Source: Corynebacterium appendicis CIP 107643
GTDB taxonomy: Bacteria > Actinomycetota > Actinomycetes > Mycobacteriales > Mycobacteriaceae
Length of the DNA: 64,000 nucleotides
Direction of reading: 5' to 3'
Assembly (NCBI RefSeq): GCF_030408415.1
Contig: NZ_CP046976.1
Location: forward strand, 62,001-126,000
Shown here: positions 1,311 to 64,000 of the stretch, piece by piece
How the letters are laid out: each line of letters opens with the position of its first letter
How positions within the stretch are numbered: the stretch's first letter is position 1
Made by a program: the position numbers and the translations under genes
The notes under the pieces: generated by a model
What the model was told of the DNA's origin: nothing
The model's input: the letters and a program-made list of their open reading frames with translations, nothing else
The model's database searches: none

Positions 1311-2060
1311 ATGTTCGCTTTGTTGGTCGCCGCTGCAGCTCTCGCGGGCTGGGTCGATGCGGTGATCGGGGGCGGCGGGCTCGTCCTCATTCCGGTGCTG
1401 ATGGCAGGCACGTCGATGCCGCCGGCGGCGATCTTGGCGACGAATAAAGTGGCGGCGGTCTTCGGCACGGCGTCCGCGGCCGTCACGCTCGTCCGCCGCG
1501 TGGGCGTGCCCCGCCAGACGTGGGGTTACGCGCTCATCGCCGGGGCACTGTCAGCAGTGGGTGCGCTTCTCGCGTCGCTTATCGACGCCTCCCTTCTCCG
1601 CCCCCTCATCCTCGTCCTCCTCATCGCCGTGGGCGTGTTCGTGGCGCTGAAACCGGAATTCGGCACGAGGCAGTCGCTGGAGGATCAACCGGTGCTCACC
1701 CCGCGCCGGGTTCTCGCCGCCGCTGGTTTGGTTGCCGTGATCGGGTTTTACGACGGAACCTTCGGCCCCGGCACCGGCATGTTCCTCATCATGGGATTCA
1801 CGGCGCTGTTCGCCCAGAACTTCCTGCGCTCCGCCGCGATGGCCAAAGTGATCAACACCGCGACGAATCTCGGTGCACTGGCGGTGTTCATCGCAGGCGG
1901 GTTCGTCGACTGGCCGTTGGCTATCGCACTCGCCGTGGCCAATATCGTCGGCGCACAGATCGGAGCCCGCACAGTGCTGGGCGGCGGTGCGAAACTGGTG
2001 CGGTACGCCCTGCTCACGCTTGTGGTCGTGCTGTCGACGTATCTGGCGTTCCAGCTCTAG
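1311..2060 (+). CDS. TauE/SafE family sulfite/anion exporter-like membrane protein
   Basis: A 249-residue membrane protein with the TauE/SafE signature: an N-terminal GWVDAVIGGGGLVLIPVL segment after the first helix and a second-half copy GFYDGTFGPGTGMF (about residues 145-158). These proteins are thought to move sulfite, sulfonates or other small organic anions across the cytoplasmic membrane; the substrate here is unknown. The frame is open from 1251, but ATG 1311 is preferred. It starts the first membrane helix directly and has TAGCGT 1297-1302 as a -10 box eight bases upstream, implying a leaderless message. It is divergent from the AbrB-like gene. Confidence 0.82.
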   Translation: MFALLVAAAALAGWVDAVIGGGGLVLIPVLMAGTSMPPAAILATNKVAAVFGTASAAVTLVRRVGVPRQTWGYALIAGALSAVGALLASLIDASLLRPLILVLLIAVGVFVALKPEFGTRQSLEDQPVLTPRRVLAAAGLVAVIGFYDGTFGPGTGMFLIMGFTALFAQNFLRSAAMAKVINTATNLGALAVFIAGGFVDWPLAIALAVANIVGAQIGARTVLGGGAKLVRYALLTLVVVLSTYLAFQL

Positions 2061-2135
2061 AGCCAGCGCAGCTCTCGGCGGAACCTACAGACAACCACAG
2101 AGATTCCTCAGCCGGCAGGGTTAGAGTCTCCGTTC

Positions 2136-2429
2136 ATGATCACAACTAAAACGGCCATGGCGGTGACGGTGGCAGCTGCGGAGGATGGCGCGGCCGTCGA
2201 TACGCAAAAGGCCGAGGAAATCGTGGATGCTGCCGTGAAATTCGTGGGCGGCACCACCATCGAGCAGCTGCATATTGTCGCTGACTCGGAGGCGCTGCCC
2301 GCGCTCGCTGTCGCCCTTGCAACGAGGGAAAATCTTCCGGAAAACCTCACGTTGGTGGAGGCGGGCCACGAGCTCGACAACGAATTCGTGGTGGTCTCCG
2401 CCGACTTCATCCTGGCGATGGCCGGCTAA
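2136..2429 (+). CDS. Small hypothetical protein, 97 aa
   Basis: A short acidic, soluble, alanine-rich protein that I do not recognise. It has no membrane segment or signal peptide, and the sequence suggests a small alpha/beta fold (helix, strand TTIEQLHIVAD, helix, strand LTLVEAG, strand EFVVVSADFI). TAGAGT 2122-2127 lies exactly eight bases before the ATG, giving a good leaderless -10. The codon use matches its neighbours. It is convergent with the amino acid antiporter gene (stop codons seven bases apart). Confidence 0.6.
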   Translation: MITTKTAMAVTVAAAEDGAAVDTQKAEEIVDAAVKFVGGTTIEQLHIVADSEALPALAVALATRENLPENLTLVEAGHELDNEFVVVSADFILAMAG

Positions 2430-2436
2430 GAGCGGC

Positions 2437-3918
2437 TTACTCGAGGACCAGCGACCCGTTAGCCAGGCCGACGACTGCGGCGATAGCCCCGACGATGACG
2501 AGGCCGACGATGACCCACTCAAAGGTGTTGAAGACTTTCTCCTTGTTGGCGATGCGCGTCCACAAATACGGGATGAGACCCGGAAGGACGGCGAGAGCGC
2601 CGAAGAGCACGTAGACGGGGTCGGCGGCGTAGATCAGCCACATCGAGTAGATGAAGCCGACGATGCCGATGGCCAGGTGGCGGCGGTTGTCGGAGGAGGA
2701 GATGGCGGGGCCGGAGTCGTCGAAAAGCTCGCCCGCGTGCGGGTGCGTCAGGCCCTTGCCGCGGACGGCGAGGAGCACGAGGTAGAGCGCCGAGAAGATG
2801 TACGGCAGCAGGTACATGATGGTCGCGAGCTGGACCATCGCGTTGTACGACGTCTCATTGGCGAAGAAGAGGATGACGAAGAACTGCACCACGCTGGTGG
2901 AGACGAGCTGCGCCATCCACGGTGCGCCCGCCTCGTTCTTCGCGGCGAGGCGCTTGGGCAGCAGGCCGTCGGCGGCCATCATGACGATCGGTTCCGCGCA
3001 GAGCATCTGCCAGGAAATGTAGGCGCCCAGAACCGACAGACACAGGCCGATGGAGATCAGTGCGCCGCCCCACGGGCCGACCGCGGCTTCGAGGACCGCG
3101 CCCATGGAGTTGTCCGGCAGCGCCGCGAGCTCCTCGCGGGTGAGCACGCCGTACGACAGCGTGGACACGGCGACGAGCAGGCCCAGCACCGACAAAAAGC
3201 CGATCACCGTCGCACGCCCGACGTCCTGGCGGGACCGCGCCTGCTTGGAGTACACCGACGCGCCCTCAATGCCGATGAACACCCAGACGGTGAAAAGCAT
3301 GATGCCCTGGATCTGGTCCGACAGGGAGATGCCGGAGTTCTCGCCCCAGAAATCCAGCGTGAACTTGTCCCAGCTGAACCCGATGAAGGCTATGAGCACG
3401 ATGAACGCCAGAATCGGGACCAGCTTCGCGATGGTGGTGACCAGGTTCATCAGCGCCGCTTGCTTCACGCCGCGGGTCAGTGCGAAGAAGATGCCCCAGG
3501 TGAGCACAGAGACAGTCAGCGCCATGACCCACGGGTTGTCCTGGTCGAAGAACGGCAGGTAGTGGCCGAGGGTGCCGAAGAACAGCGTCGCGTACCCCAC
3601 CTGCGCCATCACCGAGCCGAGCCAGTAGCCCCAGCCGGAGGTGAACCCGATGAAGTCACCCAGCCCCGCGCGCACGTAGGAGTACACGCCGGAATCCAGG
3701 TGCGGCTTACGCCGCGCGAGGATCTGGAAGACGAATGCGATGGAGAGCATGCCCACGCCCGCGATCGCCCAGCCGATCAGCATCGCGCCCGGGCTGGCCA
3801 CCGAAGCGATGTTCTGCGGCAGGGCGAAGATGCCAGATCCGACGGTGGAGCCGATGATCAAGGACACCAGGGTCCAGATGGTCACCGAATGGGCGCGCTG
3901 ACTGTGGGCTGTGCTCAT
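2437..3918 (-). CDS. APC-family basic amino acid antiporter (ArcD/LysI-like)
   Basis: A 493-residue permease with about 12-13 membrane segments. The first helix carries GSTVGSGIFALPQNIA (residues 23-38), the glycine-rich substrate loop of APC-superfamily basic amino acid/polyamine antiporters. It resembles arginine:ornithine antiporter ArcD and the corynebacterial lysine transporter LysI. It most likely exchanges a cationic amino acid across the cytoplasmic membrane; which one cannot be read from sequence. No arginine deiminase genes are nearby. It lies 47 bases downstream of hrpB on the same strand, so it may be partly co-transcribed. Confidence 0.82.
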   Translation of the reverse strand: MSTAHSQRAHSVTIWTLVSLIIGSTVGSGIFALPQNIASVASPGAMLIGWAIAGVGMLSIAFVFQILARRKPHLDSGVYSYVRAGLGDFIGFTSGWGYWLGSVMAQVGYATLFFGTLGHYLPFFDQDNPWVMALTVSVLTWGIFFALTRGVKQAALMNLVTTIAKLVPILAFIVLIAFIGFSWDKFTLDFWGENSGISLSDQIQGIMLFTVWVFIGIEGASVYSKQARSRQDVGRATVIGFLSVLGLLVAVSTLSYGVLTREELAALPDNSMGAVLEAAVGPWGGALISIGLCLSVLGAYISWQMLCAEPIVMMAADGLLPKRLAAKNEAGAPWMAQLVSTSVVQFFVILFFANETSYNAMVQLATIMYLLPYIFSALYLVLLAVRGKGLTHPHAGELFDDSGPAISSSDNRRHLAIGIVGFIYSMWLIYAADPVYVLFGALAVLPGLIPYLWTRIANKEKVFNTFEWVIVGLVIVGAIAAVVGLANGSLVLE

Positions 3919-3965
3919 ACAGGATTAACTTACTGGGAGATTCCCAGCTTTAGCGAATGATGGGG

Positions 3966-63255: not shown

Positions 63256-63346
63256 GGCTTCAAGTCCTTTTCTGCGGGGTCTTCAAAAGGGGGTGCACGG
63301 CCGGCATGCTGAACTCCGCGACGGGGCGCCAGCCGTGATGTGAGGC

Positions 63347-63418
63347 CTAGAACCCGCCGCGGCGCAGAAGTAGGGCAGCTCCCGGAAGAGCCCTGATCGC
63401 CGCGGTTGCCAATGACAT
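63347..63418 (-). CDS. leuL: leuA leader peptide (23 aa, three consecutive leucines)
   Basis: ATG 63418 to TAG 63347-63349 encodes 23 residues ending in ...GAALLLRRGGF, with CTA-CTT-CTG as three leucine codons in a row and five leucines in total. CCGCGGCG and CGCCGCGG within it can pair, as can GGGC...GCCC, allowing alternative hairpins. This is the arrangement of ribosome-mediated transcription attenuation. ATG follows the -10 box by seven bases, so it is leaderless itself. Confidence 0.65.
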   Translation of the reverse strand: MSLATAAIRALPGAALLLRRGGF

Positions 63419-63425
63419 GTTTCAC

Positions 63426-63453
63426 ATCCTAGCCATAGTGTGGCGGCGCGCAA
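63426..63453 (-). promoter_or_regulatory. leuA promoter
   Basis: On the minus strand TTGCGC (63448-63453) and TAGGAT (63426-63431) are 16 bases apart; the leader ATG begins seven bases after the -10. Confidence 0.65.
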
Positions 63454-63461
63454 CCATCCGG

Positions 63462-64000
63462 TCAGAGGGATTTGCGCGACAAGAAGAAGGTGGCCACGAA
63501 CATCGCCAGGACAGCCAGCGCCATCAGCACCCAGCCCCACACGGTGCTCACCGTGAATGTTTCGCCCAGCAGCGTCATGCCGAGCGAGTACGCGAGCAGC
63601 GGCTCGAAAATCTTCATCGCGGGCAGCGACTGCGACAAATTTCCGGCACTGAACGCGTACTGCTGCACGATTGTGCCGACTATAGCCGCGCCGAGCAGGG
63701 CGTACAGCGGCCACGTGGTCACCAGTTCGGGTACGCCGCCGCGCACGAACGCGTCAACCGTCGTCTTCGAGAACACCGCCAGGTAGCCGAAGATCGCGCC
63801 GCAGACCGCCCCCAGCAAAAACGCGCGCATGACGGATCTTTGCCGCCTCGCCGCTAGCACAGTCACGCCCATCACGACCACGCCCGCGCCCAGCGCGACA
63901 AGCCATTCGCTTATCGACGCCTCCCGCGCCCCCGGCTCCGGCCTGCCCAGCACCACCAGCACTCCCACCGCGACGGTGAGAATGGTGGCCCAGAACGTCT
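63462..64000 (-). CDS. EamA/DMT-family transporter, C-terminal part (partial)
   Basis: The frame runs from stop 63462 to the window end without a start, so at least 179 codons (C-terminal half) are visible. It has six hydrophobic segments and the DMT/EamA end pattern: SLPAMKIFEPLLAYSLGMTLLGE, then WGWVLMALAVLAMFVATFF. It probably carries metabolites or drugs across the cytoplasmic membrane. An internal GTG at 63968 is unlikely to be the start because hydrophobic sequence (FWATILTVAV) continues upstream. Confidence 0.75.
   Translation of the reverse strand, partial: TFWATILTVAVGVLVVLGRPEPGAREASISEWLVALGAGVVVMGVTVLAARRQRSVMRAFLLGAVCGAIFGYLAVFSKTTVDAFVRGGVPELVTTWPLYALLGAAIVGTIVQQYAFSAGNLSQSLPAMKIFEPLLAYSLGMTLLGETFTVSTVWGWVLMALAVLAMFVATFFLSRKSL

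Follow-up and report, generated by a model that had tools for sequence, protein, structure and literature searches.

To our knowledge, DNA uptake guided by a sequence is established only in the Neisseriaceae and the Pasteurellaceae, and uptake tags are otherwise known only from Gram-negative bacteria. We describe here an asymmetric 11-mer, GCTTATCGACG, of Corynebacterium appendicis CIP 107643, which stood out in a stretch of 64 kb (hereafter the window: bases 62001-126000 of the 2,284,440-bp chromosome, the genome being labelled G000). Together with a C-rich sequence on its 3' side, this word would be a Corynebacterium DNA uptake sequence with clade dialects, a reading to which we give a probability of about 0.68.

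Two described systems are closest to it. In the Pasteurellaceae (Haemophilus influenzae), the uptake signal sequence (USS) is present in over a thousand copies with AT-rich flanks (passages of PMC7811141), and its over-representation is graded by mismatch, as expected of molecular drive (passages of PMC1939737). For the Neisseriaceae, the relevant passages of PMC3630211 describe eight dialects of the DNA uptake sequence (DUS), which share a sub-core, reach thousands of copies in some genomes and have a distribution congruent with phylogeny. The Corynebacterium word has in common with the former a short core, base-biased flanks and graded near-copies (same passages of PMC7811141 and PMC1939737), and with the latter a variation of the word between related species which leaves a sub-core shared and is congruent with phylogeny (same passages of PMC3630211). 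It differs from USS by an unrelated core, by a tail which is C-rich where that of USS is AT-rich, by its occurrence in Actinobacteria with a Tad pilus and by an uptake bias which is here a prediction. The binding protein of DUS is ComP, and no counterpart of it stood out among the proteins of the Tad and ComE loci here. A long biased tail is not, as far as we know, a feature of DUS.

The window holds 23 exact copies of GCTTATCGACG, from 1577 to 63919, 12 on the + strand and 11 on the - strand, the same counts as in an initial annotation made from the letters of the window. The massive excess which that annotation claimed is borne out, as 0.04 copies are expected from dinucleotide shuffles and 0.025-0.033 from Markov models of orders 0-2. 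Its near-copies are also real: there are 19 copies with one mismatch. All copies are listed below, each with its tail value, which is C minus G over the 36 nt 3' of the core (C exceeds G for 23/23 exact copies and 18/19 one-mismatch copies).

1577..1587, + strand, exact core, tail C-G 0.56
4350..4360, + strand, exact core, tail C-G 0.31
4613..4623, - strand, exact core, tail C-G 0.42
7220..7230, - strand, exact core, tail C-G 0.39
8950..8960, + strand, exact core, tail C-G 0.22
9514..9524, - strand, exact core, tail C-G 0.22
19074..19084, - strand, exact core, tail C-G 0.11
23244..23254, - strand, exact core, tail C-G 0.39
28302..28312, + strand, exact core, tail C-G 0.47
30899..30909, - strand, exact core, tail C-G 0.31
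32637..32647, - strand, exact core, tail C-G 0.44
40014..40024, + strand, exact core, tail C-G 0.17
40465..40475, + strand, exact core, tail C-G 0.33
44234..44244, + strand, exact core, tail C-G 0.39
46640..46650, + strand, exact core, tail C-G 0.33
50009..50019, + strand, exact core, tail C-G 0.36
50437..50447, - strand, exact core, tail C-G 0.36
54867..54877, + strand, exact core, tail C-G 0.31
58213..58223, - strand, exact core, tail C-G 0.50
58991..59001, + strand, exact core, tail C-G 0.31
60477..60487, - strand, exact core, tail C-G 0.17
61279..61289, - strand, exact core, tail C-G 0.53
63909..63919, + strand, exact core, tail C-G 0.39
2195..2205, - strand, one-mismatch core (position 3), tail C-G 0.33
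2718..2728, - strand, one-mismatch core (position 5), tail C-G 0.44
8296..8306, - strand, one-mismatch core (position 1), tail C-G 0.22
12589..12599, + strand, one-mismatch core (position 5), tail C-G 0.31
15512..15522, + strand, one-mismatch core (position 3), tail C-G 0.11
16491..16501, - strand, one-mismatch core (position 9), tail C-G 0.36
17384..17394, + strand, one-mismatch core (position 1), tail C-G 0.14
19345..19355, + strand, one-mismatch core (position 11), tail C-G 0.11
25465..25475, - strand, one-mismatch core (position 5), tail C-G 0.33
30919..30929, + strand, one-mismatch core (position 5), tail C-G 0.19
33759..33769, + strand, one-mismatch core (position 5), tail C-G 0.17
35740..35750, - strand, one-mismatch core (position 6), tail C-G 0.14
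36963..36973, - strand, one-mismatch core (position 5), tail C-G 0.14
37304..37314, - strand, one-mismatch core (position 6), tail C-G 0.42
42649..42659, - strand, one-mismatch core (position 9), tail C-G 0.25
47393..47403, - strand, one-mismatch core (position 3), tail C-G 0.56
48828..48838, + strand, one-mismatch core (position 3), possibly chance, tail C-G 0.00
50608..50618, - strand, one-mismatch core (position 5), tail C-G 0.28
60516..60526, + strand, one-mismatch core (position 3), tail C-G 0.36

Genes were called with a rough caller of our own, on which all the frame counts depend. According to it, the copies of the window read Leu-Ile-Asp (11), Val-Asp-Lys (4), Ala-Ser-Ile-Ser (2) and Leu-Ser-Thr (2), and 4 of the 23 are without a called gene. 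The use of several reading frames therefore stands, but the claim that every copy is genic is not strictly confirmed.

Over the whole chromosome of G000 the word occurs 585 times (303 on the + strand, 282 on the - strand), against 0 on the + strand and 1 on the - strand for the same pattern read backwards, which served as control. A sample of 464 kb, made of the window and of a further 20 stretches, each 20 kb long (a pair of them picked for their Tad and ComEC genes), contains 130 copies; each of the 20 stretches holds 3-11 of them, which means that the word is spread chromosome-wide. Called genes contain 97 of these 130 copies, while shuffling synonymous codons within genes gives a mean of 4.9 and a maximum of 9 in 100 runs. 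By frame, 59 copies read Leu-Ile-Asp, 25 read Val-Asp-Lys on the opposite strand, 13 are in other frames and 33 are intergenic or at an edge. The codon-preserving shuffle, together with a tail which does not depend on the coding strand (see below), confirms the proposal that selection acts on the DNA and not on the protein.

It had also been argued from the balance between strands that the word is not replichore-oriented. Overall balance is insufficient as an argument, since a bias in one arm would be offset by that in the other; the conclusion itself holds for G000 once the sampled copies are split at the sign switch of the GC skew, near 1.15 Mb, the leading strand then having 64 copies and the lagging strand 66. 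Similarly, the first 100 of the 303 forward copies reach 754,491, that is 33% of the chromosome length, as expected without skew. In G000, the one genome considered here, the word has neither a leading-strand nor an origin-to-terminus bias.

The 11-mer is only the core of a larger element, which has on its 3' side a C-rich and G-poor stretch of about 36 nt; neither this tail nor the word variants found in related species (see below) figured in the initial annotation. In 128 aligned copies of G000, the 3' side is C-rich and G-poor to about +45, with a C fraction of 0.74 at +12, 0.75 at +15, 0.73 at +21 and 0.70 at +39, and the 5' side is flat. The C content of the tail is equal for cores in sense (0.49, n=66), in antisense (0.50, n=31) and outside called genes or at an edge (0.49, n=33). 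At third codon positions in the tail, the C fraction on the strand of the word is 0.76 instead of 0.49 for sense cores, and 0.66 instead of 0.35 for antisense cores. Hence, we concluded that selection acts on the tail as DNA and that its polarity follows that of the core.

The tail also accompanies the near-copies. In random stretches, C minus G is 0 with a standard deviation of 0.13; its mean is 0.29 for exact copies (n=130), 0.20 for those changed at position 5 (n=69), 0.25 at position 6 (n=17) and 0.23 at position 3 (n=19). In the 464 kb these 69, 17 and 19 copies are to be compared with about 4.7, 0.5 and 1.1 expected for the same positions from an order-3 Markov model. The over-represented one-mismatch forms are thus graded by tolerated position, which is characteristic of the DUS/USS class.

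The word is genus-wide. Among 242 Corynebacterium genomes, 160 hold at least 31 exact copies (35 of these at least 300), 22 hold 7-30 and 60 hold at most 6, and the maximum in the other genera of the family (140 genomes, 30 genera) is 7. We call word-poor the 60 genomes with at most 6 exact copies, and A the genomes with the main word. Related words were seen in six of 23 word-poor genomes, sampled over 33-100 kb each, and the two words found, B and C, were then searched in all 60 word-poor genomes and in six rich (A) genomes. Word B, GCTTBRCGACG, has 1,101-1,233 copies in G055, G069, G070, G167 and G237, and a lower but clear excess in G053 (158) and G168 (205); there are 4-35 copies in the other 53 word-poor genomes and 10-61 for the backward control, and in the six A genomes near-copies of A account for 124-403. 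Word C, GCTTKYCGATG, has 455, 560, 287, 565 and 571 copies in G026, G096, G101, G106 and G143 respectively, as compared with 9-37 in the other 55 word-poor genomes, 5-29 in the six A genomes and 0-9 for the backward control. The copies of B and C are about strand-balanced in each genome. A related word (B or C) is thus abundant in 12/60 word-poor genomes, with 158-1,233 copies. An unrelated word, D (CGCGRCGTCAT), has 644 copies (315 / 329) in G011 (L099, L115-L117, L130) and no more than 42 in any of the 57 others in which it was sought, which makes 13/60 word-poor genomes with some other abundant word. Positions 5 and 6 of A, which tolerate mismatches, are among the positions varying between A, B and C.

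The lower B counts of G053 and G168 possibly reflect a shift or a decay. A search for a sub-core in the genomes without an abundant word gave nothing convincing, apart from two weak hints of a further dialect, GCCGATGCC with a C-rich tail in G127 (L154, L155) and GTTCGACGTC in G131 (L085, L103-L105, L124).

We placed the words on a midpoint-rooted tree of TopA and helicase for 49 genomes, with labels which include 'none' and two tentative ones. The labels need 11 changes, and 18 or more in every one of 500 shuffles of the labels. Among the genomes on the tree, the four strong B ones make up a single clade, and the three C ones make up another, to which G127 and G042 also belong and which sits inside the A genomes. 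This shows that the words are largely congruent with the gene tree. When k-mers are ranked solely by the C-richness of the next 36 nt, the core comes out top or near top in 7 of the 9 A genomes sampled, and the C word is recovered in both of the C genomes sampled. In these two C genomes, C on the 3' side is 0.40 on a background of 0.27 and 0.50 on 0.30, which is clearer than in B genomes.

Orthologous positions were compared between the Tad region of G000, which has 11 copies of GCTTATCGACG, and nine Tad loci of relatives, with counts only over the copies that align. By amino-acid identity of the Tad ATPase, the nearest of the relatives found are Corynebacterium sp. Marseille-P3884 (95%), C. 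urinipleomorphum and sp. p3-SID1145 (both 91%). Copies still exact are 6/7 in C. urinipleomorphum, 3/9 in sp. p3-SID1145 (4 more with one change), 3/5 in Marseille-P3884, 2/6 in MSK041, 2/3 in C. tuscaniense, 2/5 in C. meitnerae, 0/1 in HMSC074A01 and 0/5 in C. pilosum, none being aligned in C. glaucum; the nine loci hold 3-8 copies of their own each. Individual sites are gained and lost, and the overall stock is maintained.

The uptake genes to which the initial annotation pointed are widely present. ComEC is found in 241/242 Corynebacterium genomes, the Tad ATPase of the helicase neighbourhood in 65/66 (the missing one being a draft, word-rich), DprA in 53/53 (45 above the cut-off), Flp, TadE and TadF in 52/52 Tad loci and ComEA in 27/27 ComE loci; the ComEA of G000 has SLBB and helix-hairpin-helix domains. 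The Pfam TadE model was too insensitive here (4/68 matched, none over the cut-off). The Tad ATPase scores at most 412 bits in 17/36 word-poor genomes searched and at least 428 bits in the 29 word-rich ones found. Passages of PMC8467076 present the Tad genes of Micrococcus luteus as essential for its transformation, and the same kinds of genes as in its Tad/ComEA/ComEC transformation are present in the Corynebacterium loci; the terms 'uptake sequence' and 'sequence-specific' occur 0 times in the main text of PMC8467076.

Near topA there is a conserved island, Ssd-TadA-TadB-TadC-Flp-TadE-TadF-helicase (L064:7940-15325). The weakest best DprA matches are those of G028 and G112 (57 and 124.5 bits for a cut-off of 191.15), sister genomes without a detected word, in which competence may have decayed. 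Six other genomes, some of them word-rich, are just under this cut-off (175.6-190.6 bits).

We observed an over-represented word without strand skew in the one genome considered, a one-sided tail, graded near-copies, dialects which follow the tree and competence genes; because of the last four, the uptake-type signal is the best supported of the candidates of the initial annotation. The word is like DUS and USS in most of the sequence respects tested, and is a candidate member of this class. A surface receptor of the transformation machinery would bind the word on free DNA, and tagged DNA would be taken up preferentially, presumably by way of the Tad pilus, ComEA, ComEC, DprA and RecA. Recombination of this imported DNA would then spread and maintain the copies genome-wide by molecular drive, and the different dialects of the clades would favour DNA of their own kind. 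Binding, receptor, preferential uptake and the Tad pilus as carrier are the parts which we infer. The full proposal, namely transformation guided by an uptake word in a Gram-positive genus with a mycomembrane, through a Tad-type pilus, the word GCTTnnCGAnG with its polar C-rich tail existing in no fewer than three related dialects (A, B, C), still seems to us on the probable side, if a little less so than the uptake sequence as such.

Several results weigh against an uptake sequence. None of the four words is abundant in 47/60 word-poor genomes (D having been sought in 58 genomes only). ComEC, the Tad ATPase, Flp/TadE/TadF and DprA are present alike in word-rich and word-poor genomes; since the machinery is also there without a detected word, it allows the uptake reading, and neither predicts the word nor proves uptake. 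By pairwise distances, no protein of the Tad and ComE loci follows the dialect clearly more than control proteins do: as a fraction of the mean distance, the same-dialect effect is 0.10 for Flp, 0.08 for TadE and close to 0 for TadF, as compared with 0.09 for LepA and 0.08 for HolA, which served as controls. Inspection by eye of the TadE, Flp, TadF and ComEA alignments revealed nothing either. The biased flank, a USS-type feature, is present for the main word, weak in G009, weaker in B and missing for word D of G011. In G009, an A genome with 515 copies, tail C is only 0.37 (n=11). In the three sampled B genomes (G237, G069, G055), 3' C is 0.41-0.45 on 0.35 and G only slightly lowered (0.29-0.31 on 0.35-0.38). 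The search by tail alone did not recover the B word in these three, and it missed the core in the A genomes G009 and G130 (20 kb only). G053, with its 158 B-type copies, stands apart from the other B genomes on the tree, and has a 3' C of 0.41 with G not lowered. Finally, in a limited literature search, we came across no Corynebacterium reported to undergo natural transformation.

The main rival of the uptake sequence is a Chi-like site, which we hold to be unlikely. A helicase-nuclease of AdnAB/AddAB type would read the word in one strand and change over from degrading DNA to loading RecA; the loading zone would be the G-rich stretch which, as read on the complementary strand, lies 5' of CGTCGATAAGC. 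Like Chi, which is over-represented, asymmetric and linked to recombination, the word is asymmetric and abundant, and it has a polar tail. In G000, moreover, two large frames next to each other (506250, 509809; the second with one internal TGA) each have a PDDEXK_1 nuclease match, a layout present in other listed genomes too, and from domain and layout this pair is probably AdnAB. PDDEXK_1 matches exist in 53/53 genomes, but they do so in every word class, so that the nucleases do not track the word either. recC (TIGR01450) was found in 0/68 genomes, the E. coli control being positive, and therefore there is no RecBCD; this and the lack of strand skew in G000 speak against a Chi read by RecBCD. 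Known Chi sites are strand-skewed and 5-8 nt long, whereas in G000 the leading and lagging copies (64 and 66) and the forward copies (100/303 in the first 33%) show no such bias, and 11 bp with a 36-nt tail exceed that length.

Slightly less likely still is a tag for another protein of DNA exchange or chromosome organisation, such as a nucleoid protein, an initiator of mobilisation or conjugation, or a partition or segregation site. The chromosome-wide spread (3-11 copies in each of the 20 sampled stretches) would suit it, but the absence of regional or replichore bias in G000 means that the word is not KOPS-, matS- or parS-like; a segregation signal of KOPS type is ruled out by the lack of an origin-to-terminus strand bias in this one genome. 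The change of word within the genus and the graded near-copies would also be more typical of uptake words than of a site bound by a conserved structural protein. A restriction-modification or methylation site, another early candidate, is ruled out for an asymmetric 11-mer with a one-sided 36-nt tail, as methylation targets are palindromic or bipartite and without a long flank. HIP1 of cyanobacteria is likewise a highly iterated genomic word, but it is palindromic, whereas the Corynebacterium word is asymmetric with a polar tail.

That the word is an ordinary by-product of the common peptide Leu-Ile-Asp (in one frame for 59/130 copies), of codon bias, of mutational bias or of a dispersed repeat family is hardly credible, since the synonymous-codon shuffle (mean 4.9 against 97) rules out a peptide or codon artefact, the flanks differ between copies and rule out a dispersed repeat, copies occur in several frames, in antisense and outside called genes, and the C-richness of the tail stays with the strand of the word, be it the coding strand or not.

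If the word is indeed an uptake sequence, such a system evolved outside Gram-negatives, and the word marks the partners of DNA exchange; many corynebacteria would be naturally transformable, which would provide a genetic tool, and gene exchange among commensals and their relatives would be explained. It would be a third, independent case for studying why uptake words evolve and how dialects form barriers. The Neisseriaceae and Pasteurellaceae have an outer membrane and the corynebacteria a mycomembrane, so that this case could test the link between such words and the crossing of an outer barrier.

Neither this word nor any uptake word of corynebacteria turned up in a limited search, over the accessible parts of the literature, which does not establish their absence from print; the Corynebacterium passages seen of PMC5217627 concern CRISPR repeats. 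In the sampled stretches of G131, sequences around ATACCTCCGCG recur 19-21-fold, perhaps as a CRISPR or similar array.

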